Shown: piece by piece, positions 1 through 20,309 of the stretch
Layout: each line of letters begins with the position of its first letter
Position numbering within the stretch: position 1 is the stretch's first letter
Virus record (IMG/VR): IMGVR_UViG_3300042520_000763
Span: 1 to 20,309 of that record
DNA from: a virus
DNA: 20,309 nucleotides
Direction: 5' to 3' (one strand)
Program-made: the position numbers and the translations under genes
The notes under the pieces: model-generated
Seen by the model: only the letters and a program-made list of their open reading frames with translations
Databases searched by the model: none
Told to the model about the DNA's origin: nothing

Positions 1-127
1 AGATGGATGTATGGATGGATGTAGGTATATACATTAACAAGGCTAGGTCGCCAAGGTTGGGTTTAGTAGGTGAGGTCGCCAAGGTTGGGGAGGGTAGTTG
101 CTGGGGAGGGTAGTGTGAAGGTCGCCA
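1..127. repeat. Left inverted terminal repeat (127 bp, perfect)
   Basis: Bases 1-127 are the exact reverse complement of 20183-20309, compared base by base. The match stops at 128, where the left side reads GCAAC and the right-side complement reads AGATT. The outermost 30 bases hold short ATGGATGT/ATGGATGG repeats. Inside are three GGTCGCCA boxes (46, 74 and 120) and a duplicated GGGGAGGGTAGT (87 and 103). No gene lies inside; the exonuclease gene ends 20 bases further in. This is either a true terminus or the inner part of a longer inverted repeat. Confidence 0.97.
87..110 (+). other. G-run cluster, possible G-quadruplex
   Basis: Four runs of three or more G occur at 87-90, 92-94, 103-106 and 108-110, within two copies of GGGGAGGGTAGT 16 bases apart. 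The loops would be 1, 8 and 1 bases, compatible with an intramolecular quadruplex, though the central loop is long. The mirror copy lies on the minus strand at 20200-20223. The G-rich strand is the one whose 5' end is the window end. The structure is an inference. Confidence 0.4.
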
Positions 128-147
128 GCAACTTTTGGTTTATTTAA

Positions 148-906
148 TTAGATAAGAGCTAGTTTAAGTGCTGATTCTAGTGGTGGCGATAATCCATCCT
201 GTTTACTTAACCAAACTAAGTAATCCCTAGGAACTTCACTAAACTTACATCCTTTGTACTTACCAAATGGTAACTCTTTCATCTCTGCTAACGGTTCATT
301 CAGCTCCTCATAACTCTTTTTACCTTGAGAGCATAAACTAGCCAACTGTTCCCATGTTTCTACTTGTGGTAACTTCTCTAATACCTTTAACAATACTAAA
401 TAAACAAGTTTACAGTCAAGTACAGCACCATGAGCATTAGCTACGAGAGTCGCCCCATCTTCAGGATATAACCATTCTATAATAGTAGTCAACTTATGGC
501 TCTTTAAACCTTTATCTTTAGGAAATACCAACTGGGCTAGTTCCTTAGTACAGATAAGTTTAACATCAGGTTTACCAAATACCCTATGGTCATATGCTAT
601 GTTATGCCCAATCATATATTTAACTGACTTAGGGAACTCAAAGGTAGTAATAGAAGGACATTTAAGTACATCCTTCATATAAATACCTGTAACTTTACTT
701 GCTTGCAGTTCTATAGCTTTGGTAGGGCGGAAACGCTGTTCATAAACTGACAGAAAGTAGCTGTTATCACTAAGAAAAGTTACAGGATTGTCTACTACAG
801 CCTGTTTAAACTCTGCTAATGTATCCTGTACATGAAGCCAGCCTATTTCACAAGCTTGAGGGTCAACTAGACCTGTTGTTTCACTATCTGCTATAAATAC
901 TTGCAT
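148..906 (-). CDS. ExoX-like DnaQ-family 3'-5' exonuclease with DUF3820-like tail
   Basis: A 252-residue DEDDh exonuclease that would remove nucleotides from DNA 3' ends. Motif Exo I is D-S-E-T-T-G near the N-terminus. Exo II is N-I-A-Y-D in the middle of the domain. Exo III is H-G-A-V-L-D, with the histidine of the DEDDh subclass. The C-terminal 40 residues read PFGKYKG...DYLVWL, the signature of the small DUF3820-like domain often attached to phage and ExoX-type nucleases. The ATG at 906 is preferred; a GTG at 915 is in frame, and neither has a clear ribosome site. The start overlaps the preceding gene by 16 bases, so translation is probably coupled. It is the last gene of the leftward cluster, 20 bases from the inverted repeat, and I see no terminator after it. 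Confidence 0.9.
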   Translation of the reverse strand: MQVFIADSETTGLVDPQACEIGWLHVQDTLAEFKQAVVDNPVTFLSDNSYFLSVYEQRFRPTKAIELQASKVTGIYMKDVLKCPSITTFEFPKSVKYMIGHNIAYDHRVFGKPDVKLICTKELAQLVFPKDKGLKSHKLTTIIEWLYPEDGATLVANAHGAVLDCKLVYLVLLKVLEKLPQVETWEQLASLCSQGKKSYEELNEPLAEMKELPFGKYKGCKFSEVPRDYLVWLSKQDGLSPPLESALKLALI

Positions 907-1067
907 AAATACCACGCTAAAATAATTGTCATACTTAAACTAAAAGCTAAACAAGCTAATAGAAGTCTGTTTAAACCTTGTAATCTCTCATAATCTTGTC
1001 TATAAAAGTCTACTAGGTCAGCTTTAGCTTTCCATATATCATAAGGATTAACACTTTTACCAACCAT
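891..1067 (-). CDS. Small membrane protein, one C-terminal TM segment
   Basis: About 58 residues, function not recognised. The N-terminal half is charged and helical. The last 25 residues form one hydrophobic helix (LLLACLAFSLSMTIILAWYL) ending in CKYL, a tail-anchored-like layout. The start at 1067 is chosen because GGGGA lies six bases upstream; ATGs at 1073 and 1088 are in frame and also possible. It overlaps both neighbours. Small membrane proteins are common among phage accessory genes, and nothing points to a specific role such as holin. Confidence 0.65.
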   Translation of the reverse strand: MVGKSVNPYDIWKAKADLVDFYRQDYERLQGLNRLLLACLAFSLSMTIILAWYLCKYL

Positions 1068-1269
1068 TCTCATTCCCCATTGGTTCATTAATATCTAATC
1101 TATCTACTATATACTTTAGACTGTCTATAGCATCTTGTTCATTCTCACATAGCAGGTCAAATCCCTGATTATTCTCTAAGATAACTCTTAGAGTTGTACC
1201 GTCTATATAAGCTTTGATTAACTTAGCTGTTGCAAATACTACTTTCGAGCCTTCTAAATAAACAAACAT
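1057..1269 (-). CDS. Hypothetical protein, 70 aa
   Basis: A short protein with alternating hydrophobic residues suggesting a small beta-rich fold (FVYLEGSKVVFATAKLIKAY, then LRVILENNQGFDLLCE), followed by a helix containing DAIDSLKYIVDRLD. I recognise no family. Its ATG overlaps the ligase stop codon by one base (TAATG), and its 3' end overlaps the next small membrane-protein gene, so the three are read as one unit. Coding status rests on this tight packing and codon usage like its neighbours. Confidence 0.65.
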   Translation of the reverse strand: MFVYLEGSKVVFATAKLIKAYIDGTTLRVILENNQGFDLLCENEQDAIDSLKYIVDRLDINEPMGNENGW

Positions 1270-2141
1270 TAATCTATCTCCCTTGCTGTTTTATCTTCTC
1301 TAATACATTTAAACCTTGGTTCTCTAAGTGAACCATCAGGTAACTCTTTCATTGCTTTAACTTCCACTACTTTACCATGAATTAGACTAGGCATTACAAA
1401 CCACATATCTCTCTGAGCATCAGTCATACCTGATACAGAATGCCTAACCCCATTCTTATCTTGGACTACCAATGCTCCTAGAGTACCTGAGTATTTACCT
1501 TCACCTCTAAGAAAACCTACTACCAGTAAATCCTTAGTAACTTCCTCTTTAATCTTTAACATCCTGTCGTTACGTTTACCAAAGAAGTAACCTGAATCTA
1601 TATCTTTTAGAATAACACCTTCACCTCCTTTAGATATAACATTACCAAAATGGTCATAGAACACAGGTTCTTCTTTAGATACTTCCAGAATCTCTATTAA
1701 CGAAGCCTGTTCGCTAATAACTTGCTGGAATACATCTATATAGAGTTTGCAAGTCTCATATCTGACATAGAATGGAGTTCCAGTCTCATCTATAGTAACT
1801 ACATCATGTAAGTTAAGAACCACACCTTCTGCATCTTCATACTTTCTATTCAGTATCCCATTAGTTTCATGGAATAACATACCTGGGATAGTAGCTTCAA
1901 AGATAAACCTTAAATTCCTGCTAGGAGTAGATAACCTTTTAAACTTCTTAGATAAATAGGTTAATGAAGGTATCTCTCTACCTGCTGATGAACATAGTTC
2001 ACCCCAAATACCTTCTATACAATCTAAATACACATACCAGCCATCTAGCTTCTCTAAAATTGCATAATTACTGTTAAACTGGAAAGATTTTTTCTTTTTA
2101 GCTTCTGATAGATGTAGTACTTTCTGTATCGGTAAGGCCAT
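1269..2141 (-). CDS. ATP-dependent DNA ligase
   Basis: Seals nicks in duplex DNA through an enzyme-adenylate intermediate. Counting from the ATG at 2141 (290 residues), nucleotidyltransferase motif I is E-K-L-D-G with the AMP-accepting lysine at residue 31. Motif III is F-I-F-E-A. Motif IV is G-G-E-G-V-I-L-K. Motif V is M-L-K-I-K. A C-terminal OB-fold follows, including VVGFLRGEGKYSGTLGALVV. The size fits compact phage ligases with no N-terminal DNA-binding domain. An upstream ATG at 2210 is in frame and overlaps the preceding gene. The 2141 start is preferred because AGAGG lies seven bases before it and motif I then sits at the usual distance from the N-terminus. It would join Okazaki fragments and repair recombination products with the other replication genes. 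Confidence 0.95.
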   Translation of the reverse strand: MALPIQKVLHLSEAKKKKSFQFNSNYAILEKLDGWYVYLDCIEGIWGELCSSAGREIPSLTYLSKKFKRLSTPSRNLRFIFEATIPGMLFHETNGILNRKYEDAEGVVLNLHDVVTIDETGTPFYVRYETCKLYIDVFQQVISEQASLIEILEVSKEEPVFYDHFGNVISKGGEGVILKDIDSGYFFGKRNDRMLKIKEEVTKDLLVVGFLRGEGKYSGTLGALVVQDKNGVRHSVSGMTDAQRDMWFVMPSLIHGKVVEVKAMKELPDGSLREPRFKCIREDKTAREID

Positions 2142-2190
2142 GTTATTACCTCTAGGGTAGGTTAATAGGTTAATTGCTGGAAACTTTAAC

Positions 2191-3569: not shown

Positions 3570-3847
3570 CGCCTACCCCCTAAGAAACTATTAGCTAATT
3601 GGTTGTCAAAAGTAACTTTAGGCTTATCCACTTTACCTTTAGTTCTATTGGACTCTTGATAGAATTCCTTAAACTCCTGAAAGTTATACAAGTTAGCGGT
3701 TCTACCTCCACCATACCATTCACCTTGCCTTACAGCTCTAGGTGCGCCTTCTTTACCTAGATATGCTCTAATCCTAGATTCAGATAACTTTAGAGCCTGA
3801 GCCATTTCAACTACTGTATATAAAGTTTTAGCTTCCGGTATCAACAT
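3566..3847 (-). CDS. wHTH DNA-binding protein (MerR/excisionase-like)
   Basis: About 93 residues. The stretch YTVVEMAQALKLSESRIRAY is a helix-turn-helix of the MerR/excisionase/Nu1 type. It is followed by a wing-like segment (GAPRAVRQGEWYGGG) and an aromatic helix (LYNFQEFKEFYQ), then a basic tail. Such proteins act as excisionases, terminase small subunits or transcription factors. With no integrase or terminase in the window, a regulator is the simplest guess. The start is uncertain. The ATG at 3847 has GGAGG 11 bases upstream, while an ATG at 3865 and a TTG at 3907 are also in frame. It overlaps the end of the dUTPase gene. Confidence 0.75.
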   Translation of the reverse strand: MLIPEAKTLYTVVEMAQALKLSESRIRAYLGKEGAPRAVRQGEWYGGGRTANLYNFQEFKEFYQESNRTKGKVDKPKVTFDNQLANSFLGGRR

Positions 3848-4283
3848 CTTTACTAATGCCTCCATCACTTCTTTCTGTAGTTTCTGGGAACTCCAATACC
3901 TCTTCAAAGTTTACATTTGCTAACTGTAAGAATACAGTCTGTGCAATTGCTGAGTAAGGTTCAATAGTTACTGTTTTATTACTGTTTCTATTCCAAGCAG
4001 ATACAAACCATTGTCCTTGATAGTCTGAGTCAATAACTCCGGTTAAGTTACCTACTACTAGCCCATCTTTATGGCCACGTTTACTTCTAGGTAGGATTAA
4101 ACCTACTATTGAAGGGTCTTTAATAAAAATAGCTAATCCTGTTGGAATTAGTTTACTTTCTCCGGGCTGTAGTACTAAGGTCTCATCTATAGCAGCTAGT
4201 AGGTCAAAGCCTGCACTACCATCAGTAGCTCTTTCAGGTAAACTTACCATATAATTTACCAATTTAACTTGTATTTTATTCAT
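3828..4283 (-). CDS. dut: dUTP diphosphatase (dUTPase)
   Basis: Trimeric dUTPase family, hydrolysing dUTP to dUMP and pyrophosphate. This limits uracil in new DNA and feeds dTMP synthesis. Visible motifs, in order, are: motif 1 G-S-A-G-F-D-L; motif 2 P-R-S-K-R-G; motif 3 G-N-L-T-G-V-I-D-S-D-Y; motif 4 Y-S-A-I-A-Q. The C-terminal motif 5 is unusual: RSDGGISKDVDTGS instead of the normal R-G-x-G-G-F-G-S-T-G. The phenylalanine that stacks on uracil is absent and a few residues are inserted. The start at 4283 gives 151 residues and an ATGA overlap with the preceding gene; GGGA lies six bases upstream. An in-frame ATG at 4295 is possible. The 3' end is overlapped by the wHTH gene. Confidence 0.93.
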   Translation of the reverse strand: MNKIQVKLVNYMVSLPERATDGSAGFDLLAAIDETLVLQPGESKLIPTGLAIFIKDPSIVGLILPRSKRGHKDGLVVGNLTGVIDSDYQGQWFVSAWNRNSNKTVTIEPYSAIAQTVFLQLANVNFEEVLEFPETTERSDGGISKDVDTGS

Positions 4284-4477
4284 TTTGAATCCCATTTATA
4301 GACGATTAAACCTTGTTCTGTATGTTGTTCTTTAGATAACTTACCCAACGCAACTAAATTACTAATCGAGAACAAACCAGTTAAAGGAATACCTGCATTT
4401 CTTAACTTACTCTGAATATATAACTCTGGGTTGTGCATCTTTTCTAACTCTTTAAATGTAACAGTTACTTCTATCAT
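4280..4477 (-). CDS. Hypothetical protein, 65 aa
   Basis: A short mixed alpha/beta protein (MIEVTVTFKELEKMHNPELY...), ending ...GLIVYKWDSK. No family recognised. It is joined by ATGA overlaps to both the polymerase gene upstream and the dUTPase gene downstream, so it is translated as part of the replication run. No membrane segment, cysteine cluster or obvious helix-turn-helix is present. Coding status is well supported by the two four-base overlaps. Confidence 0.7.
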   Translation of the reverse strand: MIEVTVTFKELEKMHNPELYIQSKLRNAGIPLTGLFSISNLVALGKLSKEQHTEQGLIVYKWDSK

Positions 4478-5910
4478 TTACAATCTCCATACGATTTATC
4501 TGAAATAGCTATACCAGCGGGAATAATTAGTTTCTTATTATATTGTAGTTCAATCTCCATATGTTTAGTAATTTTTTCAGGTGCGGTTAAATCAGACTTT
4601 AGATACTGCCCACTCAATGAGTCATGTGTCTGCATTAGTACCTGTACATTCTTAGGATTCTCTTTCTTATCTATATTAACCAGTCCTTTATTAACTAGAA
4701 TACCGATGGTACTTTGAGGAACCCAAGCAATTGCTTTATTGTTAATCATGTTATCAGAACGGTCTAGGAAGTATCCTCTAGCACCAAATACATTCTCAAC
4801 AAACCCAAACTTCTCCATATTAGCTATATGTCTTAACTGCCATTGCTTAACCTCTGGGCAGGCTGAGAAGTAAAACTTCTGCACTTTATCTACTTCATGT
4901 ACTAATAGTCCGGCTTTACCTGCCAGAGTAGGGGCTTTACCCAAATAGTTAGTACCATGACAAATAGCTTTAAAGATTTGTCTTTCTTTATCTTTCTTAG
5001 TTATAGTTCTGCCGTAGTACTCACTAGCAATAGTAGCATAAAGGTCTAGTTTATCGTCATTAAAGATACTAATAAGGAATTTACAATCACTATCAAAAGC
5101 AACTACCCTAGCATCTGCACCACTATAGTCAATATCAAAGAAGACATAACCATCATCAGGTATAAAGAGTCTTTTACAATTAGGTAACTCTGTAATACCT
5201 GTAGTTTCATCATCTATAGCTACCTCAAGAGTATCTTCATTATCGTCAGTAGGGTCTACAGAAGCTAGAGAGTACTTTAAATCTATTTTACCCTCTTTAG
5301 GTACGTTTTGCAGGTTCATACCGTTACCAAAAGCGTTCTTTCTACTTGCTAAACGATATGTCTTAGTACCAGCAACATTATAACTGGTTCTCATCCTACC
5401 ATCTTCGTCTACTTTAGCAGATAAGAAGGTTCTTACAAAGATACCGATACTTCTATACTCTAGTAATAGTTTTATCAGCGGAGCATAGATAGGATATTCA
5501 GCTAAGTAGTCAAGCATATGCTCTGAACCAAAGCTTTCTTTACCAGTCTTTCTATTAATCTTAGGCTTAATACCTAAAAGTTCAGTAAATACAGCTTTAA
5601 TCTGTGGTGTAGACTTAGGATTAAACTTCTCGCCTATGATATAGTCTAAATTAGCTTCTACAGAAGTTAATATCTGGGATAATTGGTTAAATAGTTCTTC
5701 TTTCTTCTCTAGGTCAATTCTAATACCACGGTTCATAACTCTAGTAAGAGCAGGAGCTAGTTCATATTGCTGAAACCCATAGAACTCTTGTAGTTTAGGG
5801 TTCTGGGACTTTAGAACACCTTGCAGAACTTCAGCTGTCTCTCTAGTGTAGAGAATATCTTTTACATTATATCTCCAACGTGTAACATCTTGTTCAGTGT
5901 AGTTAGCCAT
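4474..5910 (-). CDS. Family A DNA polymerase, polymerase-domain half (split gene)
   Basis: 478 residues from the ATG at 5910. It carries the palm, fingers and thumb of a Pol I-type replicative polymerase. Motif A is D261-Y-S-G-A-D, motif B is R310-QIF-K314...Y322, and motif C is H429-D430-S431. Tyr322 at the fingers position is as in T7 polymerase. Motif C has Ser where HDE is usual. The first 20 residues contain Y14-N-V-K-D18, which fits the Exo III motif (Y-x3-D) of the proofreading nuclease. The rest of that nuclease is encoded by the preceding gene, so the split runs through the exonuclease. The two reading frames overlap by eight bases (ATGGCTAA). GGAAGGA lies about 12 bases before the ATG, so reinitiation is plausible. 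A residue 207-242 region rich in D/E/T looks like a family-specific insertion. Earlier in-frame starts exist up to 5955. Confidence 0.92.
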   Translation of the reverse strand: MANYTEQDVTRWRYNVKDILYTRETAEVLQGVLKSQNPKLQEFYGFQQYELAPALTRVMNRGIRIDLEKKEELFNQLSQILTSVEANLDYIIGEKFNPKSTPQIKAVFTELLGIKPKINRKTGKESFGSEHMLDYLAEYPIYAPLIKLLLEYRSIGIFVRTFLSAKVDEDGRMRTSYNVAGTKTYRLASRKNAFGNGMNLQNVPKEGKIDLKYSLASVDPTDDNEDTLEVAIDDETTGITELPNCKRLFIPDDGYVFFDIDYSGADARVVAFDSDCKFLISIFNDDKLDLYATIASEYYGRTITKKDKERQIFKAICHGTNYLGKAPTLAGKAGLLVHEVDKVQKFYFSACPEVKQWQLRHIANMEKFGFVENVFGARGYFLDRSDNMINNKAIAWVPQSTIGILVNKGLVNIDKKENPKNVQVLMQTHDSLSGQYLKSDLTAPEKITKHMEIELQYNKKLIIPAGIAISDKSYGDCK

Positions 5911-7024
5911 GTTGTTGGTCGTCCTTCCAGTATTGATAGTTATCACAGTAAACACTAGCTAGAAACGCTAAGTTCTTTTCCATATTATTGTAAAGTACAT
6001 GGTGTAATATCATAGTATCAGTAAAAGCTTCTGTTTTAGTAAGCCAGAACTTCCATATAAACTGAGCATCATAAGCATAGTTCTGCCCTGTTACTTGTAT
6101 GTTCTCATGTGCTAGGACTTTTAAGAGCAACTCAAATACCTTATATTCTTCTTCAGCAGTCCAGAAGTTAGGATTATCTAAAGTAGAGAACGGAATACAG
6201 ATACCTCTATTGTTCTGGTAAGCAATCCCAATACAATCTATTGTGGAACTATAACGAGTTTCAATATCAACTGATACTAGCAAGTTATCTTTATCTAATT
6301 CTGTTAATAGCTCGGTCATAAAACCAGTAACAGTTTCAAGTTCTGTTCCTAGAATAAATTCTTGTTTTGGTTCTAAGTAACTGGCAACTGTTTTACCTTC
6401 TTCAACAAGCCCTTTAAACAAATCACCAGCTTTTAAACAATCCCATTGCATTACTGGTATTTTATCTGGACTACGCTGTTTAGTTACTGGTGGTAATACT
6501 GGAAATAAGATATGCTCTGGCAGTTTAAAACCTTCCCAAGATGTTTCTAAAGAAGCCCTATATTTAGATAAACCACCTAAAGGTTTCTGCGATTTGCCTG
6601 AACCTTGTGTAGCCGTATAACTTACTTTACCAGATAGGAAGAATAAACTCCACTTACCAGCTACAATAATTAACTTAGGCTCTACTTTAGCAATTTCATT
6701 AACTAACATCTGAAACTCTAACATTAGTTCTGGTGAAACATATAGGTCTTTCTGATGCTCTAGCTGTAAATAATGAGGCTTAGTTTCTAAACCTTTCTTC
6801 TTGCAGAAATCAGTAGCCCAGTCATAGCTATCTTTATCTGGTCTTTCATAGCTAAGATAGGTAGTATGGATAAACCTTTGTGGTATTCCTGCTTTAGCTA
6901 GGTCAGATAGTAATGATAGGTGACTTGCACCTGACCAAGCAAAATCTCTTTCTACTTCATTTTGTATCGGATAATCAACTATAACCATGACTGGTTTAGG
7001 TGATGGGTGTTTGGGTCTGTGCAT
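5903..7024 (-). CDS. UDG-like plus 3'-5' exonuclease half of a family A polymerase
   Basis: 373 residues. Residues 10-190 resemble the uracil-DNA-glycosylase-like domain fused to the N-terminus of some phage Pol I enzymes (SPO1 type). It appears catalytically degenerate: the usual GExPG loop reads VDYPIQNE, and the usual HPS motif reads L-P-P-V (residues 177-180). Residues 245-373 are the proofreading exonuclease, with Exo I D253-I-E255 and Exo II N315-Y-A-Y-D319. The protein stops at YWKDDQQHG before Exo III, which is encoded at the start of the next gene in another frame. The two products would have to associate for proofreading, or be joined by frameshifting; no classic slippery heptamer is visible. 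The start has AGAGGA seven bases upstream. The structured non-coding stretch 7025-7231 lies directly upstream. Confidence 0.85.
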   Translation of the reverse strand: MHRPKHPSPKPVMVIVDYPIQNEVERDFAWSGASHLSLLSDLAKAGIPQRFIHTTYLSYERPDKDSYDWATDFCKKKGLETKPHYLQLEHQKDLYVSPELMLEFQMLVNEIAKVEPKLIIVAGKWSLFFLSGKVSYTATQGSGKSQKPLGGLSKYRASLETSWEGFKLPEHILFPVLPPVTKQRSPDKIPVMQWDCLKAGDLFKGLVEEGKTVASYLEPKQEFILGTELETVTGFMTELLTELDKDNLLVSVDIETRYSSTIDCIGIAYQNNRGICIPFSTLDNPNFWTAEEEYKVFELLLKVLAHENIQVTGQNYAYDAQFIWKFWLTKTEAFTDTMILHHVLYNNMEKNLAFLASVYCDNYQYWKDDQQHG

Positions 7025-7231
7025 ATAGTTGTCCTCTATAAGTTAGTTGCTGGTTACGTTATCCAGCGGCTTTCGCCCGTAAGTACAGCCTAATGTCGGA
7101 GAGGTCACATCACCTAGTAAACACTACCTGTACTCTAGGAGTTTAACAGAACTACCTATACTGCCAGCTTACTGATACTGGGTTAGTCTAGCGGAGCAAT
7201 CATAAACGCTAAAACTAACAGTTGAAGCCAA
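7025..7231 (-). ncRNA. Structured non-coding region between SSB-like and polymerase genes
   Basis: 207 bases with no credible ORF on either strand, inside a cluster where most genes overlap. Several stems can be drawn: 7182-7187 with 7214-7219 and 7189-7193 with 7207-7211 (11 pairs, one internal loop); GCTGG 7049-7053 with CCAGC 7063-7067; GGC 7068-7070 with GCC 7075-7077, closing a GAAA tetraloop on the minus strand; TTACG 7054-7058 with CGTAA 7078-7082; and a CTGT..ACTC/GAGT..ACAG hairpin near 7125-7150. Some stems exclude or interlock with each other, so switching or a pseudoknot is possible. No T-rich tail follows the strong stem, and no tRNA features or clear group I core are seen. It could be a leader of the polymerase mRNA, an RNase processing site or a small RNA. 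Confidence 0.5.
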
Positions 7232-7720
7232 TTAAGCTTCTAATTTAGCTACTTTAGATACTTCAGCTCTAATAGCATCACCTTGCGCTCTACGAGTTAC
7301 ATTAACTAGAACATCATAGCCAGGTAGACTATTTGCAATGTTAGTAAACATAACAGTATAAGCTTCAAAGTCATTCATAGAGTCTTCAATACCTTCTTGA
7401 TACAACTCATCTGTAGTATCAATACCACAAGCTTGACCTAACTGTGCTAACTGTGGGTTATCATTAGACAACAAACCTGTGTCTTTATCAAAGCGGATAA
7501 AGAAGTTACCGTATACTTTAGGTTCATCTACACCTAAGTCTTTAATAACATCTTCATCTTTTACTACATAAACAGTTTGGATACTCATCCATTTACCTTC
7601 ACCATCTTTAGTATCGCCAGTCTTTACATCAGACTTAATGATAGAAGCAGGGTATTGACCAGCTTGCATTACTTTTCTTTCTGTAGACATTGAAGATAGG
7701 TCTAAATCAAAACGTGCCAT
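7232..7720 (-). CDS. SSB-like phage replication protein (tentative)
   Basis: 162 residues. It has an N-terminal beta-rich region with GQYPASIIKSDVKTGDTKDG, then GKWMSIQTVYVV, and an acidic, flexible second half. This resembles phage single-stranded-DNA-binding or DUF669/DUF2815-like recombination proteins that lie beside Sak4-type ATPases. Assignment rests on pattern and neighbourhood, not on an invariant motif. Codons such as CGT for arginine near both ends suggest stronger expression than the AGA-rich neighbours. The start follows AAAGGA, with a 79-base gap to the ATPase gene upstream, which could hold a weak promoter or processing site. The non-coding 7025-7231 stretch follows its stop. 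Confidence 0.6.
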   Translation of the reverse strand: MARFDLDLSSMSTERKVMQAGQYPASIIKSDVKTGDTKDGEGKWMSIQTVYVVKDEDVIKDLGVDEPKVYGNFFIRFDKDTGLLSNDNPQLAQLGQACGIDTTDELYQEGIEDSMNDFEAYTVMFTNIANSLPGYDVLVNVTRRAQGDAIRAEVSKVAKLEA

Positions 7721-7799: not shown

Positions 7800-8678
7800 T
7801 TAATCTGTAAAGACTGGATATGCTGAGAAGTCTGGCTTCAACTTATCTTGTCTAGGGAATCGTCTAGGGCTAGTTGCTACACCCTCTTTCTTACCAGCGA
7901 ACCAGAAGTTATCTTGTCTATCTACATAAGAATAGATGACTTCAGAGAACTTAGATACGATAGTATTATTCAAAGCTTGCCCAAAAGTCTTAGGATATAG
8001 TTTAGTAACTTTCAACTCTTCATCTTTAGGCTGTTTAACTGTCTGGTCTTCCCCAATAACAGGATGACCTAGCATGATGATAGAACATCTACATTGTTCA
8101 GTTAATGGTACAATAATCTTAGCCATTAGATTATTCTGTACATCACCATAATCTTTCTGAGTAGTTGCAGAACGACTACCTTTAACAGTTGAAACTAGAT
8201 AATCGACACAGGCTGTTAAACTGTCTACTACAAGGATAGTATCCTCATCCCATTGTAGATAGTCACCTAAGTTATCAACTTCTTTAGTAACATAGTCTGT
8301 ACCTTTAAATACTGCTAAACCTTCTAAGATAGAGATAAATTCATTATGTTTAGAACGGTCTCCAGCACCTATCTTAACTTTCAAAGCATCAGCTTCAGAT
8401 AGGTTAAGGAAGTTCTCTTTAAAGTCTTTAACTACTGCGGCTGAAGTGTACTTAGGATTATAAGTAGGTCTACAAACCATATAGTGTAACTGACCTTTCT
8501 TTAGAGTAATACCTAGACGTTTAATACCGTCTTCCATACCTGCCATTGCGTTCGCTTCTGTCATCAGGTATCTTACTTTCAAGTTAGGATTTTTATCTAA
8601 CAGTTTAAAGACAGTAGCTACTGAGCTGGACTTACCAGAACCACCTTCACCATATAATAGTATATTTGTTTTAATCAT
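7800..8678 (-). CDS. Sak4-like RecA-fold ATPase
   Basis: 292 residues. Walker A is G-E-G-G-S-G-K-S at residues 10-17. Walker B is T-I-L-V-V-D152-S-L. A likely sensor strand, CSIIMLGHPVI, follows. The size and order match phage Sak4/AAA_24 ATPases, which are RecA-fold proteins promoting single-strand annealing and recombination, usually with a phage SSB. That partnership fits the SSB-like gene immediately downstream and the PD-(D/E)XK nuclease immediately upstream. The ATG lies inside the nuclease stop region (overlap of eight bases). The Walker lysine and aspartate are intact, so activity is likely. Confidence 0.88.
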   Translation of the reverse strand: MIKTNILLYGEGGSGKSSSVATVFKLLDKNPNLKVRYLMTEANAMAGMEDGIKRLGITLKKGQLHYMVCRPTYNPKYTSAAVVKDFKENFLNLSEADALKVKIGAGDRSKHNEFISILEGLAVFKGTDYVTKEVDNLGDYLQWDEDTILVVDSLTACVDYLVSTVKGSRSATTQKDYGDVQNNLMAKIIVPLTEQCRCSIIMLGHPVIGEDQTVKQPKDEELKVTKLYPKTFGQALNNTIVSKFSEVIYSYVDRQDNFWFAGKKEGVATSPRRFPRQDKLKPDFSAYPVFTD

Positions 8679-10439: not shown

Positions 10440-11732
10440 CTAACTAATAATTGATAAATGTTCTTTAGCTCTTGAGCATCCAACGTATAAAATTTTATGC
10501 CTAAGAACAGTATTATCACACTTCTTTATATCCTTCCAAGATACATATACTCTAGGTATAGTCATACCTTGACTTCTATGAGCAGTAATAGCATAACTAT
10601 GTTTCACATTAGCAAACATACTCATAGCAAAGTGGTAGTTTCTAAATGCCTTTTCTCTGGCTTTAGTAGTTTGTTTATTCCAGCACTCATATTTTAACCT
10701 ACTAGCTAGAGTTTTTAACTTGCTCTTATCTATAGCAACATAGAGCAGTGGTCTGGTTTTACTATCTACTTCTACTTCAAGTTCAAAACAAGGTACGCCT
10801 AGAACTGTAGCTAACCCTACCTTTCTAACAATAGCCTTAGTATTAGCAGAAAACTGTACTACTGCGGCTGAGCCGGATAGTTTATCTAATCTACCCTTAG
10901 TAATACCTACTAATGGCTCTACAAACACACAAGGACTGGTCATAATTACCTTATCTTTAGGATAGAACGGCTCAGGTAAAGCTGTGTTAAAGATACACTT
11001 TCTAATGTAGTTATTCATTACATCGGCTTCACGATTAGTCCAGCAGATATACTTACTACGTTCATAAAGAAAGTCATGTCTACCTTCTGTAGAGTCCATA
11101 TAATCCATTAAAGTTTGTAAACTTATGTCATACTGTTTACCAACTATTCTAGGTTTCTTATAGATGCAATTTTCTAACTTACTTATAAACTCAAATAGTT
11201 CTCCTTTATTCCTTTCTGGAGTAGTTAAAGTATATATCGGATAAGACTGTTTAAATACTACACTCTCACAGTCATCATCAGACTTTAGATTAACTACTAC
11301 CTCTGGTAACTGTGACCTATGACCTATAAATAATGTCTTCTTACCAGCTTCTAGTATAGCGTCTAAGAGTTCTTGCCCTACCATTGAACACTCGTCTACT
11401 ATAAGTAGGTTAATATCATTGATAATAGGTGTTTCAGCTCTTTGAGCTAGTTTAGCTTCCTCCTCGTCTGTTTTAAAGTGAAATCCTAGAGCTGAGTAGG
11501 TAGTTCTAATTAAACTACCTACTGGTAATACTAGCTCTAACTGTCTGCAAGCCTCATTGGTAGGTGAAGTAAATAAAGGGTCGCAATTCTTTAGCTCTGC
11601 TACTAGGTCTTTTACTATAGTAGTTTTACCTGTACCAGCACAACCTTCAAGTATTGCGAACCTTTTGTCACTATCCCACCAGTTCCTAAAGAACTCTTTG
11701 GCTCTTAGTTGGTCTTGGTTAAGAGTTATCAT
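10440..11732 (-). CDS. Dda/RecD-like SF1B DNA helicase
   Basis: 430 residues. Motif I is G30-C-A-G-T-G-K-T, motif Ia F-T-S-P-T-N, and motif II L-L-I-V-D113-E114-C-S. Motif III is G137-H138-R-S-Q141-L-P. A later arginine motif is T-P-E-R-N. Motif V is T-A-H-R-S-Q-G-M-T and motif VI Y-V-G-C-S-R-A-K. This is the arrangement of 5'-3' SF1B helicases such as T4 Dda, which load on single strands and remodel replication forks. Motif III is unusual: GDxxQLPPV is expected, but the aspartate is a histidine here and PPV reads PEV. The remaining catalytic residues are intact. The ATG overlaps the preceding stop (ATGA). It probably helps origin opening or fork restart. Confidence 0.92.
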   Translation of the reverse strand: MITLNQDQLRAKEFFRNWWDSDKRFAILEGCAGTGKTTIVKDLVAELKNCDPLFTSPTNEACRQLELVLPVGSLIRTTYSALGFHFKTDEEEAKLAQRAETPIINDINLLIVDECSMVGQELLDAILEAGKKTLFIGHRSQLPEVVVNLKSDDDCESVVFKQSYPIYTLTTPERNKGELFEFISKLENCIYKKPRIVGKQYDISLQTLMDYMDSTEGRHDFLYERSKYICWTNREADVMNNYIRKCIFNTALPEPFYPKDKVIMTSPCVFVEPLVGITKGRLDKLSGSAAVVQFSANTKAIVRKVGLATVLGVPCFELEVEVDSKTRPLLYVAIDKSKLKTLASRLKYECWNKQTTKAREKAFRNYHFAMSMFANVKHSYAITAHRSQGMTIPRVYVSWKDIKKCDNTVLRHKILYVGCSRAKEHLSIIS

Positions 11733-12589
11733 TCACATTCATAGATATAGTTAGTTACTTCTTCTAGTGTAAGCGGTACGGCAAAGGCGTATACATCACC
11801 ATCATCACTCTCTACTAGGTATGGGTAAGTATGCCGCTCAGTAAAAGACATTACAAATGCTAGAATATCTAGTCTATTTTCATTGTCACCTACCCAACAT
11901 AGTATCTTCTTATCTTTAAGAGCATCTTCCCATCTAGGAACTGGTTTAGGTTCTATAGTAGCTACTTGCCAGCCGAAAGGATAGTTAAAGTAAGGTAGTC
12001 CTTCTTGTTCCAGAACTCCGCCATATCTATCAAAAGTACTTAATTCACCTTCTTCTGTAAATCCATATATATATTCACCACCAGCACAACTAACATAACC
12101 ACCATTAGCTAAATGCTTATAAATCTCCTGCTGAGTGGTAAAAGTAGTTACTGGTTCTTTCACTATCTCTTCTACAATATCAAATTCAGAATGTTCAGAG
12201 CTATAAACACTACCAGTTAAAGACTTACCATATAGAAAACCATTTGTACCTGTTAAAGTATACTCATCCCAAGATTCTAAAGTAACTTCTTTACCTTCTC
12301 TAGTTCTGTAAGTTTTACCTGCTTCTATATTAACTATTACTTTACCTATCATTTTAATCTCCTCTGGGTTATATTCTGCAACTAGGTCTAGGTCATTTTC
12401 TATGATACCTACCCAAGAGCCACCATAAGTCCACGTTCTAGTGGCTGTAGATATATTAGTACCCATCTTATAAGTAGTAGCTGTGTACGCAAACTCTCTG
12501 AAGCCGTCTGTTAGTTGTTCTAAAGGTGCTGTATACTCACTTCCGTCTCTAGTAATATATTGTTTACCTTCCTCTAATTCTATAGCCAT
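11729..12589 (-). CDS. Repeat-containing phage protein of unknown function
   Basis: 286 residues. The first half contains two related modules: I-E-L-E-E-G-K-Q-Y-I-T-R-D-G-S-E, and about 80 residues later V-N-I-E-A-G-K-T-Y-R-T-R-E-G-K-E, both in beta-rich context. The second half starts TTQQEIYKHLANGGYV and ends with W..ALKDKKILCWVGD ... YAFAVPLTLEEVTNYI. That second half is related to the product of 17664-18140 on the other strand, which has RQEVFQALTEG, GVLCWVHN and ATPLTNEEIKQFL in the same order. No catalytic motif is evident; a binding role is possible. The start at 12589 follows AGAGG; a TTG at 12613 is in frame but lacks such a signal. It overlaps both neighbours. Confidence 0.7.
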   Translation of the reverse strand: MAIELEEGKQYITRDGSEYTAPLEQLTDGFREFAYTATTYKMGTNISTATRTWTYGGSWVGIIENDLDLVAEYNPEEIKMIGKVIVNIEAGKTYRTREGKEVTLESWDEYTLTGTNGFLYGKSLTGSVYSSEHSEFDIVEEIVKEPVTTFTTQQEIYKHLANGGYVSCAGGEYIYGFTEEGELSTFDRYGGVLEQEGLPYFNYPFGWQVATIEPKPVPRWEDALKDKKILCWVGDNENRLDILAFVMSFTERHTYPYLVESDDGDVYAFAVPLTLEEVTNYIYECE

Positions 12590-13053
12590 GTTGGTATACC
12601 TCTGTTTGTCCAATTATGTAAATGTTGTTTAGCGTTTCTGTAATAGTTTCTATAACTCTCTACTTTGTCAGCTACCTTATATTCATCAGGCATAGCTAAT
12701 GGTAGTTCTGTAAATTCACCTACAGGTATGTATGTGAACATTAAACCTAGAATATCTGCATCCTGTAGTTTCTCTACCGACAGGTGGTGCTTACCATATC
12801 TGTGGTAGTATTCTCTATCTAGTTCTATCATTAACTGATATAACCAAGTAGCGTTAGTTAAGCTTTGCCTAGCCCAGATACTACAAGGATGATTAACATG
12901 AGTAGTCTTGTAAGGACTAACTTGTTTACCAGCTTTGACATTAACTGCTGTGCATAGTAACTGAGCAGACTCTAGTATCATCTTTATAACATGTTTATCT
13001 GTATGGTACTGAGCGCAGAGTTTAATATCCCTATCTAAGTAAAATATATTCAT
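12580..13053 (-). CDS. Pyrimidine-dimer DNA glycosylase-like protein (tentative)
   Basis: 157 residues starting MNIFYLDRDIKLCAQYHTDK, then HVIKMILESAQLLCTA. Later come VNHPCSIWARQSLTNATWLY, DREYYHRYGKHHLS, PLAMPDEYK, and SYRNYYRNAKQHLHNW ending TWL. I recognise this pattern from widespread phage proteins commonly labelled pyrimidine-dimer DNA glycosylase. The label is homology-based and the activity is not shown for most members; conserved histidines and Y-R-N-Y-Y are the constant features. If active it would start repair of UV dimers. It overlaps the upstream gene by four bases and the downstream gene by ten. AGGTGAG precedes the ATG. Confidence 0.6.
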   Translation of the reverse strand: MNIFYLDRDIKLCAQYHTDKHVIKMILESAQLLCTAVNVKAGKQVSPYKTTHVNHPCSIWARQSLTNATWLYQLMIELDREYYHRYGKHHLSVEKLQDADILGLMFTYIPVGEFTELPLAMPDEYKVADKVESYRNYYRNAKQHLHNWTNRGIPTWL

Positions 13054-14175: not shown

Positions 14176-14205
14176 TTGCCGTTTCAATTTCCCGTAAACT
14201 ACTAT
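14176..14205 (+). promoter_or_regulatory. Possible rightward promoter
   Basis: -35 TTGCCG (14176-14181), 18-base spacer, -10 TACTAT (14200-14205). Four of six matches in each box. It would place the transcript start within about ten bases of the ATG at 14219, a short leader, with AAGG as ribosome site. A TATAAT at 14132-14137 lacks a good -35. The rightward operon needs a promoter in this region, but the exact one is uncertain. Confidence 0.4.
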
Positions 14206-14218
14206 ATAAGGTATAGAT

Positions 14219-14545
14219 ATGAAAACATCAGTAGTATTTGAACTAGAGGACAACAAAGTACAACAGTTACTTTGTATTCCATTAGAAGCTATAGAGCTAT
14301 ATGTAGAGTTCGAGTTCGAGATAGTAGGTAGTTATCAGCCAGCTACTTTTAACTATCCAGCAGAGTTTCCAGACTTAGAAGGTGGTGATACCTTAGTTGC
14401 TGAAGTAACTTTTATAGATGGTTCTATTGTTAGTTTGAATGAGAAACAAATTAAAGCTTTAGATAAGTTATTAACTAAAGAACAGATAGATATAATGGAT
14501 TCAGCTTGTTGGGAACACTTTGATAACTTAAACGACTATAACTAA
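14219..14545 (+). CDS. Strongly acidic protein, first gene of the rightward operon
   Basis: 108 residues with about 22 Asp/Glu, about six lysines and no arginine, so a net charge near -16. Acidic residues alternate with hydrophobics in ELYVEFEFEIV, then AEFPDLEGGDTLVAEVTF, giving strands lined with negative charge. A C-terminal helical part ends in MDSACWEHFDNLNDYN. No family recognised. The composition resembles DNA-mimic proteins, which are often early phage products against restriction or host nucleases; this is only a compositional argument. AAGG precedes the ATG. A 12-base gap separates it from the next gene. Confidence 0.7.
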   Translation: MKTSVVFELEDNKVQQLLCIPLEAIELYVEFEFEIVGSYQPATFNYPAEFPDLEGGDTLVAEVTFIDGSIVSLNEKQIKALDKLLTKEQIDIMDSACWEHFDNLNDYN

Positions 14546-14557
14546 GAGGATATAACA

Positions 14558-14959
14558 ATGACTACTAAAATTTACTTAGGTACTCAAGATAATGAAAGAA
14601 TGTACGTTACCAAACATAAGTGGGATTGTAATTGGTACTGGGCTTTGGGCTATGTAGGCAACGATAACTGTCACTTTCATTTTGATTCTTATCTAAAGGA
14701 TGGTAAATCCGTTAATGATGTATTTACAGAATGTAACTTTACCTACGGGGATTGGTGGGTTATTAGAGATTTGTTTACCCAAGCCTATGCTCTAAAGAAA
14801 GTAGCTGAAGTATATCAATATGGAGGACATCAAATTACTAAAGCAGGTGTAACAGATATTATTAAAAACTCTGATAAAGCTAAACAAGTTAACGAAGATT
14901 TGAAACTTATCTTAGATACTGTCTGGGATTTTATGTTAGTTACTAACCTACGGAAATAA
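14558..14959 (+). CDS. Conserved phage protein with WYW-GYxGN motif
   Basis: 133 residues. The N-terminal part has KHKWDCNWYWALGYVGNDNC, then HFHFDSYLKDG, a pattern I recall from small phage proteins of unknown function. A GDWWVIRDLF segment and a helical C-terminus follow. The dense Trp/Tyr/His/Cys cluster could bind a metal or nucleic acid, but no motif proves it. AGAGGA lies upstream with good spacing. It is one base from the following gene. Function unknown. Confidence 0.75.
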   Translation: MTTKIYLGTQDNERMYVTKHKWDCNWYWALGYVGNDNCHFHFDSYLKDGKSVNDVFTECNFTYGDWWVIRDLFTQAYALKKVAEVYQYGGHQITKAGVTDIIKNSDKAKQVNEDLKLILDTVWDFMLVTNLRK

Positions 14960-15245: not shown

Positions 15246-15527
15246 ATGAAGATAGCAGATATTAATAAAGCAGATAAAGCTGAACGTACCAATATGTTCT
15301 TTGACTATCTAACAGGACTTGGATTTACTGTTAATAGTACTTGTATCTATCATTGTTATTGCAGATATCCAGACTTTAAAATAGATATTTGGGCAACCAC
15401 AGCTAAGATGGATGTTGTAGAACATAATTTAGGTAAAAAACCTAAAAGATATAACGGCTACCAAAGCATCTTAAACGAAATTAATAGACTACATAAACTT
15501 TATTTGGAGAGCAACAATGGCAATTAA
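15246..15527 (+). CDS. Hypothetical protein, 93 aa
   Basis: 93 residues, mixed fold. The centre contains CIYHCYCRYPDFKIDIWATT, with C-x3-C-x-C and several aromatics, perhaps a metal site but without a second ligand pair. The C-terminus is basic (NLGKKPKRYNGYQSILNEIN). No family recognised. Its last codons overlap the start of the downstream helicase by 11 bases and carry that gene's GGAGA ribosome site, linking the two. Confidence 0.7.
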   Translation: MKIADINKADKAERTNMFFDYLTGLGFTVNSTCIYHCYCRYPDFKIDIWATTAKMDVVEHNLGKKPKRYNGYQSILNEINRLHKLYLESNNGN

Positions 15528-16983
15528 ACCTACTTTAGAGCAAGAACAAATCGTATTAGAAGCTAGTAAAGGTAGTAACCTAGCTATCTCGGCCTTTGCT
15601 GGTGCGGCTAAGACAACTACTTGCACACTTATAGCAGATAAACTACAACGTAAATCACTATATATAGCCTTTAACAAGTCAATAGCAGAAGAAGCTAAGA
15701 CTAAGTTCCCTTCTTGGGTAGAGTGTAGGACTTTACATTCACTAGCTTATGCTACTATTATTGCACCAGAGAAAATGTACAAGAAGGTATCTGGTTTCTT
15801 TGATACTAAACAGTTTGTAGAGCTATATGGTGAGCAGTTAGATTATTTAACCGAAGACAAACAACTAGAAACTATATTTAAAGTTCTGGATATTATAAAA
15901 GCTTTCTGTCAATCGGATAGTTTAGCTCTAGGAGAGTTTACCTATGCTTTCCTAGAACATGATAGAGCTAGTTATGATTATTATTTACCCTTAGTTCTTC
16001 AAGCTTGGGCGGCAGTTACAACTAAGACAAGTACTGTAAACATGACCCATGATGTTTACTTGAAAATGTATCAGTTATCTAATCCTAATCTGGAAGACTA
16101 CGAAGTTATCTACTTAGATGAGGCACAGGATTCTAACCCAGTTACCTTAGATATATTCTATAATCAGAATAGCAGTCAGTTAATTATGGTAGGTGACAGT
16201 TACCAGTCTATTTATGAGTGGCGTGGTGCGGTTAATGCTTTTGATAGTATTCCAGATACTTTTAAACGCTTGTATTTGACTGAAAGTTTCAGATTTACTC
16301 CAGAGATAGCTGAGTTAGCTACTAAACTTACTTCTATTGCTGGTAATGATAGACCAATCATAGGTAAGGCTGAGGTTAAACCAGTTAAAACAAGTGCTAT
16401 TATTGTTAGAACTAATGCTTCTATTATTGATTATCTACTTGCGGCAGTTCAAGAGAACTATAAAGTCCATGTAGTAGCTGATTTACAGGATTTATGGTCT
16501 AAACTTTACCATTTATCTGCTCTAGGTAGTGGGTCAAAGCCTAAATTCCCTAATGCTGAATTGCGTAGGTTTAACACTATAGGTGACTTTGCTACAGAAG
16601 CAGAACGTAACCCAGACCTAAAACGACTAGCTATGTTATCTTTTAAAATGTCACAAGGTAGAGGTACTCATGGTAATATAGTTGCTATTAAAGGTGTACT
16701 TGCTGAAACACCTGCTGAGGGTAAGTTTACTATTGTTACAGCCCATAAAAGTAAGGGCTTGGAATATGACTCAGTTACTTTAGATATGGATATGTTACGG
16801 GAAACAGAGGAAGGTGGTATTGATGACCTAGTTAAACTGCTGAAAGATAATCAAACCTTGAATCTGCTCTATGTAGCTATGACTAGAGCCAAATACCAAT
16901 TAACTTTACCTTCTAATGTCTATGATATTTTTGACAACCTAGAAGTACTAACCGACCTATGGGATAAGACTGCTAGTAATTAA
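15517..16983 (+). CDS. UvrD/FBH1-like SF1A DNA helicase
   Basis: 488 residues. Motif I is A28-G-A-A-K32-T-T-T, followed by the LYIAFNKSIAEEA segment typical of FBH1/UvrD-like helicases and a C-RTLHSLAYA motif. Motif II is Y-L-D201-E202-A-Q-D, motif III V-G-D-S-Y-Q-S-I-Y-E-W-R-G-A, motif IV TESFRF, motif V T-A-H-K-S-K-G-L-E-Y, and motif VI Y-V-A-M-T-R-A-K. These define a 3'-5' SF1A helicase. It is shorter than UvrD, as phage versions often are. It is complementary in polarity to the Dda-like helicase on the other strand. It probably serves recombination-dependent replication or replisome bypass. GGAGA precedes the ATG. Confidence 0.93.
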   Translation: MAIKPTLEQEQIVLEASKGSNLAISAFAGAAKTTTCTLIADKLQRKSLYIAFNKSIAEEAKTKFPSWVECRTLHSLAYATIIAPEKMYKKVSGFFDTKQFVELYGEQLDYLTEDKQLETIFKVLDIIKAFCQSDSLALGEFTYAFLEHDRASYDYYLPLVLQAWAAVTTKTSTVNMTHDVYLKMYQLSNPNLEDYEVIYLDEAQDSNPVTLDIFYNQNSSQLIMVGDSYQSIYEWRGAVNAFDSIPDTFKRLYLTESFRFTPEIAELATKLTSIAGNDRPIIGKAEVKPVKTSAIIVRTNASIIDYLLAAVQENYKVHVVADLQDLWSKLYHLSALGSGSKPKFPNAELRRFNTIGDFATEAERNPDLKRLAMLSFKMSQGRGTHGNIVAIKGVLAETPAEGKFTIVTAHKSKGLEYDSVTLDMDMLRETEEGGIDDLVKLLKDNQTLNLLYVAMTRAKYQLTLPSNVYDIFDNLEVLTDLWDKTASN

Positions 16984-16987
16984 TAAC

Positions 16988-17016
16988 TTGACCTATCTAG
17001 GGAACTGGGTTATAAC
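16988..17016 (+). promoter_or_regulatory. Sigma-70-like promoter before the hydrolase gene
   Basis: -35 TTGACC (16988-16993), exactly 17-base spacer, -10 TATAAC (17011-17016); five of six matches in each box. It lies in the only sizeable gap of the rightward operon and would give the hydrolase and downstream genes their own transcript, perhaps with different timing from the helicase. Confidence 0.7.
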
Positions 17017-17030
17017 CACAAGGAAGTGGT
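17015..17030 (+). promoter_or_regulatory. Small hairpin in the hydrolase leader
   Basis: ACCAC (17015-17019) pairs with GTGGT (17026-17030) around an AAGGAA loop. It sits at or near the predicted transcript start and 18 bases before the ATG; the true ribosome site AGGAG lies just after it. A 5' stabilising stem, or a decoy or regulated site (AAGGA in the loop), is possible. Five base pairs is short. Confidence 0.35.
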
Positions 17031-17047
17031 AAATATAGGAGAATAAC

Positions 17048-17389
17048 ATGGGTTCTATAGCCTGTTTATCGTTAATAATGTATATGGAAGCTCTAAATCA
17101 GAGTAACTATACCAAGGCTTTAGTAGCTGATGTAGCTATTGAAAGAGCTAGTCAAGAAGGGTTTTCTATTTGCAAAAGTATGAAGGTAAAGAAGTCCTAC
17201 TCTTGGATGTGGGATGGAAAGAATACTAGAGTAAATAGAAAGCTCTTGGAAGGTCTTAAACCTATTGCAGTTAAAGAGTTAAAGAAACCTATGATAACTG
17301 GTAGATATTTCTTTAATGAATGTACTATGGGTAAGAGATGGAAAACTAAACACAGCATGATTAGGAGTGAGAAATTATGTTTTTACTAG
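17048..17389 (+). CDS. SleB-type cell-wall hydrolase (probable phage endolysin)
   Basis: 113 residues matching the pattern of the Hydrolase_2/SleB family of peptidoglycan-cleaving enzymes. The N-terminal helix contains CLSLIMYMEAL with the likely catalytic Glu14. The R-A-S-Q..FSICKSM...YSWMWDG segment follows (family pattern: siC.vv...fSw). A C-terminal aromatic end, GRYFFNE...W...CFY, completes it. The family usually has NR before the C-W region; here it is ER. No signal peptide is present, so release would need a holin-type partner. AGGAG precedes the ATG, and its own promoter is at 16988. The last 30 bases recur behind the next gene (17625-17654). A bacterial sporulation role is unlikely in this context. 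Confidence 0.7.
   Translation: MGSIACLSLIMYMEALNQSNYTKALVADVAIERASQEGFSICKSMKVKKSYSWMWDGKNTRVNRKLLEGLKPIAVKELKKPMITGRYFFNECTMGKRWKTKHSMIRSEKLCFY
17360..17389 (+). repeat. 3' end of hydrolase gene, copy 1 of a 30-bp near-direct repeat
   Basis: The 30 bases encoding IRSEKLCFY plus stop recur at 17625-17654 with 26 of 30 identities. All four differences are synonymous in the hydrolase frame (AGG/AGA, TTA/CTT with two changes, TAC/TAT). The gene 17377-17625 lies between the copies, with its start inside copy 1. Confidence 0.85.
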
Positions 17390-17625
17390 AAAAGATTAAT
17401 AACTTCAGTAATAACTATAAAAAAGTAAATTATTTTGGTATAGATTTCTATGTAGATGAAGAAATAAAGTACATAGCTACTGATAAAGATGGGTCAATTT
17501 ACGGTTATATTGAATTGCCAGTTGAAAGAGTAAATGAATGGTGGGCTCCAGAAGTAAGCCCTCCTTACTTCGGTAACTGTAGTTACACAGGCCATTGGCA
17601 ATGTTCATTAATGGCAGTAGATTAA
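17377..17625 (+). CDS. Small phage protein, possible inserted cassette gene, 82 aa
   Basis: 82 residues: VNYFGIDFYVDEEIKYIATD, then KDGSIYGYIELPVERVNEWW and a Cys/Trp-rich end. The pattern of a beta strand, IATDKDGS and an aromatic motif occurs in small phage proteins that bind unknown partners; no function is assigned. It begins inside the end of the hydrolase gene (13-base overlap), with GGAG upstream as ribosome site. It is followed at once by a second copy of the hydrolase's last codons, so it appears to have been inserted there together with a duplicated 3' end. Confidence 0.7.
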   Translation: MFLLEKINNFSNNYKKVNYFGIDFYVDEEIKYIATDKDGSIYGYIELPVERVNEWWAPEVSPPYFGNCSYTGHWQCSLMAVD

Positions 17626-18140: not shown

Positions 18141-18141
18141 A

Positions 18142-19399: not shown

Positions 19400-19415
19400 C
19401 TTACAGACAATAAAA

Positions 19416-19436: not shown

Positions 19437-19462
19437 CTTCTTTAGATACTGTTACCAGTATA

Positions 19463-19996
19463 TTACATAGCTTCAGCAGCAGCTAGTTTCAACTTAGCAA
19501 TTTCAATCTTAATTGCTTTCTCACCATACAAAGCTTGTTTAGCTTCTTTAGTTAATGCGGCAAAGATAGCATTTACTTTAGCAATACCTTCACTACCTAC
19601 AACATCAATACCATTTGCATTAGCATAGGCAGTTTGTAGTTGAGTTAATGGGGTTAAGCTTTCACCGTTACTGCCGCGAGTAGCCCATACACCAGCTTCA
19701 AATTCAGCTAGTTTACCTTCAATTACTGACTTAATATCTTCTACTTTAACACCAGCAGTAGATGCTTTTACTTTAGTAGAGAAACCGAAAGCTAAGGCTT
19801 GTGCAGTAAAGTCGTCTAAACCTTCTACATCATGTGAATAAGTAACTTGAGTACCGTCAACGATATGGAAAACAACTTCAACGCCAGTTTCTGTAATACG
19901 TTCGCTAGATAGTAAACGACCAGATACACCGAAGTTTTTAACTTGACCATCTTCCATGGTTACTACTGTTTGTTCTTTTGCTTGTACGTCTGACAT
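19463..19996 (-). CDS. Probable highly expressed phage protein of unknown function, 177 aa
   Basis: 177 residues. The N-terminal half is beta-rich (VKNFGVSGRLLSSERITETG, VEVVFHIVDGTQVTYSHDVE). A conserved-looking helical middle follows (ALAFGFSTKVKASTA...GKLAEFEAGVW), and an alanine-rich helical end (KLKLAAAEAM). This strand-plus-helix layout with G-x-W resembles small phage proteins of unknown role; I cannot name a family. It is a single-gene unit with a near-consensus promoter, AGAGGA ribosome site and strong terminator. It uses CGT arginine codons and many preferred-type codons, unlike the AGA-rich neighbours, all signs of high expression. It lies next to the right inverted repeat; a DNA-coating or terminus-related role is speculation. 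Confidence 0.78.
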   Translation of the reverse strand: MSDVQAKEQTVVTMEDGQVKNFGVSGRLLSSERITETGVEVVFHIVDGTQVTYSHDVEGLDDFTAQALAFGFSTKVKASTAGVKVEDIKSVIEGKLAEFEAGVWATRGSNGESLTPLTQLQTAYANANGIDVVGSEGIAKVNAIFAALTKEAKQALYGEKAIKIEIAKLKLAAAEAM

Positions 19997-20057
19997 GATA
20001 GAGTCCTCTAATTAGATTGTTAATTTAATCGCTAGGTGACTACCTAACGATGAGTCT

Positions 20058-20085
20058 ATTATACAGCTTTTTAAGATATGTGCAA
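20058..20085 (-). promoter_or_regulatory. Strong sigma-70-like promoter beside the right repeat
   Basis: On the minus strand: -35 TTGCAC (20080-20085), 16-base spacer, -10 TATAAT (20058-20063). Same geometry as the leftward operon promoter at 14000-14027. TGGCGAC boxes lie upstream from 20114 outward. It would drive the 19463-19996 gene with a leader of about 55 bases. Confidence 0.8.
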
Positions 20086-20113
20086 ATTATTTTATGCTTT
20101 AGTTAAATTTTGT

Positions 20114-20264
20114 TGGCGACCTTATGTATAAAGTTGGGATTGGCGACTCTCACATCTAAAGTAGATTTTTAGTTTCCAATCTTGGCGACCTTCACACTAC
20201 CCTCCCCAGCAACTACCCTCCCCAACCTTGGCGACCTCACCTACTAAACCCAACCTTGGCGACC
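20114..20264. repeat. TGGCGACC iterons at the right end
   Basis: TGGCGACC occurs at 20114, 20183, 20229 and 20257, plus a one-mismatch copy (TGGCGACT) at 20141. Start-to-start spacings are 27, 42, 46 and 28 bases. The left end has mirror copies at 46, 74 and 120 only. Most copies are followed on the complementary strand by AAGGTTGGG or similar. The arrangement resembles binding-site iterons for a replication, telomere or repressor protein. The innermost box lies 28 bases upstream of the -35 element at 20080-20085, so a regulatory role is also possible. The binding protein is unknown. Confidence 0.75.
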
Positions 20265-20309
20265 TAGCCTTGTTAATGTATATACCTACATCCATCCATA
20301 CATCCATCT
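20183..20309. repeat. Right inverted terminal repeat (127 bp, perfect)
   Basis: Exact reverse complement of 1-127. Unlike the left copy, its box motif continues inward beyond the repeat, with further TGGCGAC boxes at 20114 and 20141. A promoter for a leftward gene sits just inside. The extent of exactly 127 identical bases matches the largest k-mer used in some common short-read assemblies, so the true repeat may extend outward past the window. Confidence 0.97.

Follow-up and report, generated by a model that had tools for sequence, protein, structure and literature searches.

Elimination of GATC, with depletion of further restriction-type words, in a replication module of an uncultured tailed phage

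GATC-free genomes among described viruses

Loss of GATC is an already documented phenomenon, known from phage K, phiX174 and the HF1 haloviruses (Rusinov 2018). In the Staphylococcus Twort-like phages K and fRuSau02, which are tailed phages with dsDNA genomes, GATC is wholly absent and the absence was ascribed to host restriction (PMC5618024). The haloviruses of the HF1 group (HF1, HF2, Serpecor1, and Hardycor2) have zero GATC and are depleted in further palindromes, including many 6-mers (PMC7230728). In phiX174, zero GATC sites stand against about 20 expected; an effect of mismatch repair was tested in this phage, and the reason why it avoids GATC is still called unclear (PMC5014478). Among dsDNA phages, those that are not temperate have commonly been purged of Type II sites, typically to complete elimination, and every one of the 46 phages with a host carrying GATC Type IIM enzymes has too few GATC sites (PMC6286503).

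The stretch of DNA analyzed here (the window; positions 1 to 20309 of a linear IMG/VR virus record, 20,309 bases) resembles phiX174 in having no GATC, and six further words are depleted in it. It differs from each of the described systems: phages K and fRuSau02 are large myoviruses of Firmicutes, phiX174 is a small ssDNA phage, and the HF1-group members are archaeal viruses that also lack CTAG, whereas the window has 136 CTAG sites. The nearest named relatives by polymerase are Bacteriophage sp. ctMlz233 (MW202489; 42% identity) and Microcystis phage Mel-JY34 (PP438425; 33% identity), and no nucleotide relatives were found among named phages and plasmids. Both polymerase relatives have a replication gene set in common with the window but differ from it in a G+C content of about 60%, normal GATC counts (216/248 and 250/254), a polymerase encoded intact by one gene, and, upstream of that gene, a ParB-N6/N4 methyltransferase. 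Beyond the known phenomenon, the most useful additions of the present analysis are a multi-site signature and a methyltransferase contrast.

Absence of GATC from the window

Exact counting gives zero GATC in 20,309 bases, a count valid for both strands because GATC is palindromic; it covers this fragment, and the remainder of the virus genome may differ. Four null models place the expectation at ∼40–66 sites, with 65.8 from base composition, 51.5 from a maximal-order Markov model, a mean of 42.3 (sd 6.2) in dinucleotide shuffles, and a mean of 39.7 (sd 4.6, minimum 28, n = 300) in synonymous-codon shuffles of the coding sequence. Across 700 codon-preserving shuffles, in which proteins and overall codon usage were kept, GATC always numbered at least 27 (z about −8.5). 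When all tetranucleotides are ranked by depletion against the Markov expectation, GATC comes first, and its 0/51.5 amounts to elimination in the sense of PMC6286503 (ratio <0.1); the other four-base palindromes are all at 0.45 of expectation or above, the lowest being GGCC (7 vs 15.5 expected). A first-pass annotation of this DNA had claimed that GATC is absent throughout the 20.3 kb although dozens would be expected by chance, and had proposed a 4-mer count against a Markov expectation as a check; the exact counts confirm the claim. Its further claim that the avoidance is specific to GATC stands among 4-mers and fails overall, since six longer words are also strongly depleted.

The codons that flank potential sites carry the same signal. 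Aspartate before C is encoded by GAC in 34 of 34 cases, vs 72 of 324 elsewhere (Fisher p = 1e-20), and isoleucine after G is never encoded by ATC (0/64), vs 60 of 313 elsewhere (p = 7e-6). The purge therefore works via synonymous changes, and neither base composition nor the encoded proteins account for the absence of GATC.

Persistence of the loss among relatives

Two near relatives, both with 88–89% nucleotide identity to the window, are similarly poor in GATC, the closest being a contig of 21,468 bases (0 of 51 expected) and the second a contig of 15,936 bases (2 of 43 expected), and a more distant relative, L003, has 1 of 39 expected. Searches with the ligase, Sak4, and one terminal ORF for further near relatives returned only the two contigs already known. 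In a comparison of the window with 3300046819_000128 (88.8% identity over 18.4 kb), ∼21 and ∼20 GATC gains were expected by direction and 0 and 0 were observed, and the comparison with 3300047478_000125 (88.2% identity) yielded 1 and 0 gains against ∼18 and ∼17 expected, these expectations coming from a simple one-step model that is too high for most other palindromes also, up to threefold or more. GATC alone among palindromes is at or near zero gains in both pairwise comparisons. Counter-selection is still ongoing because at most one gain is seen against ∼17–21 expected per direction. The earlier proposal that selection removed GATC is thus strongly supported by the synonymous codons, by the clade-wide persistence of the loss at 88–89% identity, and by the missing new sites.

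In the polymerase tree, the window clusters with L004, L104, L003, and L002 (100/100 support), and the observed/expected ratios of GATC are 0.00 in the window, 0.00 in L004, 0.05 in L104, 0.03 in L003, and 0.67 in L002. L002, whose metagenome also yielded L003, retains 24 of the 36 sites expected, a shortfall that does not reach significance. Apart from this clade, L020, L021, and L034 are partially depleted (0.16 to 0.31), and their neighbors L030–L050 more weakly so (0.19 to 0.64). The purging is lineage-specific, because GATC ratios differ across groups of the tree, and it probably arose more than once. The uncultured lineage therefore offers a clean and quantifiable case of near-complete purging together with a sister, L002, that is not significantly depleted.

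Depletion of other restriction-type words

At a family-wise (Bonferroni) threshold, three of 477 tested 5-mers and three of 1,333 tested 6-mers are significantly depleted, and all are palindromic (3/3 in both sets; hypergeometric p = 2e-4 and 5e-6, respectively). The 5-mers are CCWGG (2 vs 22 expected), GCWGC (3 vs 20.5), and GGWCC (0 vs 10.1), and the 6-mers are TCTAGA (0 vs 11.5), ACTAGT (0 vs 10.6), and GTTAAC (1 vs 12.8), all six being Type II restriction-type words. Under synonymous-codon shuffling, the depletion of GCWGC and TCTAGA remains strong, that of CCWGG (z −2.4) and GTTAAC (z −1.9) is weakened, and AAWTT, a word not usually linked to restriction, is low as well. Because the support shifts with the null model, purging of secondary sites beyond GATC is likely, not certain. 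The purged sets vary by lineage, with GATC and GGCC missing from L003, CCWGG missing from L002, and GATC and GGWCC both low in L020, L021, and L034. The GGCC count in L003 is 0 vs 16 expected, unlike that of the window.

Probable host restriction and competing explanations

The ancestors of this phage probably met, repeatedly, hosts that restricted DNA at GATC and at several further Type II sites, which agrees with the elimination pattern of the published survey (PMC6286503). The co-purged words, being Type II palindromes as well, support a cause of the restriction type. Under such conditions, an ancestral phage would have passed repeatedly through hosts carrying several restriction systems, one of them GATC-specific; genomes bearing GATC would have been cut more often, variants that had lost sites would have been favored, and GATC would have been lost mostly by synonymous changes until none remained, with newly arising sites still being removed. 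The selecting agent would be a nuclease of a DpnII/MboI/Sau3AI-like, a DpnI-like methyl-directed, or a phosphorothioation-linked type, and the phage would probably be non-temperate with a lytic lifestyle. GATC, CCWGG, GCWGC, GGWCC, TCTAGA, ACTAGT, and GTTAAC together form the predicted restriction repertoire of the host population. In a freshwater community, lineages methylating GATC and GCWGC were described along with a predicted GGWCC methyltransferase (PMC6329791); such motifs are thus present in lakes, and the window's own habitat and host may be different.

A narrower account, in which GATC is targeted by a phosphorothioation (Dnd/Ssp)-linked or a methylation-dependent, Mrr-like nuclease and the other words by ordinary restriction systems, is unlikely. 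For the GATC-free haloviruses of the HF1 group, both phosphorothioation at GATC and restriction of Gm6ATC by Mrr have been discussed (PMC7230728), and the sequence data fit any of these nucleases alike. Nothing specific speaks against this account, which is a sub-case of restriction-driven purging; in the published survey, site avoidance is driven most often by classical Type II enzymes (PMC6286503).

Mismatch repair is a less probable cause still. In a host of the Dam/MutH type, GATC in phage DNA could be nicked by MutH or could lower the mutation rate, and hence be lost; phiX174 is entirely GATC-free, which raises its mutation rate, and MutH cutting at unmethylated GATC can lower phage yield (PMC5014478). 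A count of zero GATC by itself fits this explanation equally well, but mismatch-repair avoidance predicts depletion of GATC alone, whereas the fragment is also short of six further Type II palindromes, GGCC is missing besides GATC in L003, and GGWCC is low besides GATC in L020, L021, and L034. As Dam/MutH predicts GATC alone, the best fit is a phage evading several restriction systems of its hosts. The first-pass annotation had offered purging by restriction or by Dam/MutH, and the co-purged Type II palindromes support the former and not the latter, which does not predict them; the host population strongly targeting GATC that it proposed is still an inference.

That the sites disappeared without selection, through codon usage or a mutation bias such as the deamination of methylated C within GATC, is very improbable. 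The fragment is AT-rich (35% G+C) and methylcytosine deamination would remove GATC, but the codon-preserving shuffles never fell below 27 sites, the invariable use of GAC before C represents T-to-C replacement and not a product of deamination, GATT is not especially enriched (GATA 294, GATT 157, and GATG 146 on both strands), and L002, of similar composition, retains most of its GATC sites. An assembly or library artefact, be it a chimeric or fragmented contig or digestion by an enzyme that cuts GATC, has a negligible chance of being the explanation even though the window is a metagenomic contig with no isolate. The absence recurs in relatives whose contigs come from two other metagenomes, GATC is kept in L002, a different phage from the metagenome that gave L003, and digestion cannot leave behind 20 kb of uninterrupted coding sequence that is free of GATC and in which codon choice depends on context. 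Dam/MutH, deamination, and assembly artefact are consequently rejected as main causes.

The host was sought by several routes. A polymerase scan of genome contigs gave only relatives of 23–30% identity, in unrelated MAGs; DNA matches to ∼740 genomes (two phyla and one genus) were at chance level or lay in conserved gene fragments and yielded no host; no CRISPR-like repeat array accompanied three top-ranking hits in the phylum of G001; and no GATC-targeting host enzyme was found in these host searches. The strongest match of the host search, L117 (G452:C1:1300000-1319999), contains a DEDDh exonuclease 31% identical to that of the window (148–915), and this exonuclease adjoins a Zorya type I-like system (ZorA, B, C, and D by PADLOC). 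G452 shares its phylum with G007 (an alphaproteobacterial MAG), and the match permits no firm statement on the host.

Contrast with methyltransferase-carrying relatives

Among the 78 relatives in which the surroundings of the polymerase could be assessed, 72 have, upstream of it, a gene with ParB_N and N6_N4_Mtase domains, which Pfam confirmed in three of them. This gene was not found anywhere in the window by tblastn, and it is also absent from the four other clade members and from L047; the interval upstream of the window's polymerase ORFs (7025–7231) is without it by tblastn, by domains, and in comparison with the annotation of L008 and L009. A GATC ratio below 0.1 occurs in none of the 72 methyltransferase carriers vs four of the six non-carriers, absence being scored on fragments so that the gene could sit in unseen parts. 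The four purged non-carriers all belong to one clade, and L002 and L047 are methyltransferase-free yet unpurged.

It is a tentative and rather doubtful suggestion that the clade swapped its anti-restriction strategy, with loss of a protective methyltransferase compensated by purging of GATC and other Type II sites, and any causal link between methyltransferase loss and the GATC purge is hypothetical. If loss and purge are linked, two anti-restriction strategies would be comparable on one replication module. The idea that the lost methyltransferase was GATC-specific was also considered; simple protection of GATC is made less likely by L020, L021, and L034, which carry the gene yet stay low in GATC.

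Gene content of the fragment

The fragment is a replication module of an uncultured tailed phage with a PolA-type polymerase. On the minus strand it encodes a DEDDh exonuclease of the DNA polymerase exonuclease subunit family (148–915; phrog_192, E 1.1e-33; PADLOC DEDDh), an ATP-dependent DNA ligase (1269–2210; phrog_114, E 8.5e-60), a dUTPase (3828–4295; PF00692, E 1.8e-26), and a phage DNA polymerase of the PolA type in two ORFs. The polymerase domain has its own ORF (4474–5898; phrog_17, E 1.2e-61, and relatives), which reaches 5955 from a GTG and likely starts at an ATG at 5898 or a few bases upstream, and the exonuclease/N-terminal part is a separate upstream ORF (5903–7024; phrog_17, E 6.6e-13). 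The stop of the exonuclease ORF overlaps the start of the polymerase ORF (CATGGCTAA) at a junction near 5898–5905. The same split junction is found in contigs 3300046819_000128 and 3300047478_000125, and the polymerase of L002 and L003 is one long ORF. Between the window and 3300046819_000128, the polymerase ORF has ∼73% nucleotide identity over its alignable part and is GATC-free in both, and the adjoining exonuclease ORF has 87–91%. The polymerase ORF is far more diverged than its neighbors, as if exchanged.

Further along the same strand lie a small ORF, conserved and with no family match, that separates the polymerase from the Sak4-like gene (7232–7720) and from its position possibly encodes an SSB, a Sak4-like ATPase (7800–8678; phrog_124, E 1.5e-9), an exonuclease that is PD-(D/E)XK-like in the relative MW202489 (8671–9654; phrog_1218, E 1.2e-13), a Dda-like helicase (10440–11732; phrog_325, E 1.2e-66), and a pyrimidine-dimer DNA glycosylase-like protein (12580–13053; phrog_624, E 9.7e-56, and annotated relatives). 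A DNA helicase is encoded on the plus strand (15517–16983; phrog_1967, E 4.1e-91). Family matches of the scanned ORFs in this part of the genome included no methyltransferase, restriction gene, or integrase.

In two relatives, ORFs that resemble HNH homing endonucleases by eye are inserted beside replication genes (L004:13016-13648, 14201-14752, and 16831-17472; L006:1926-2438), and all of them are without GATC. A small, conserved, acidic-looking ORF of the window with no family match (14219–14545, plus strand) is, as judged by eye, a possible anti-restriction DNA mimic.
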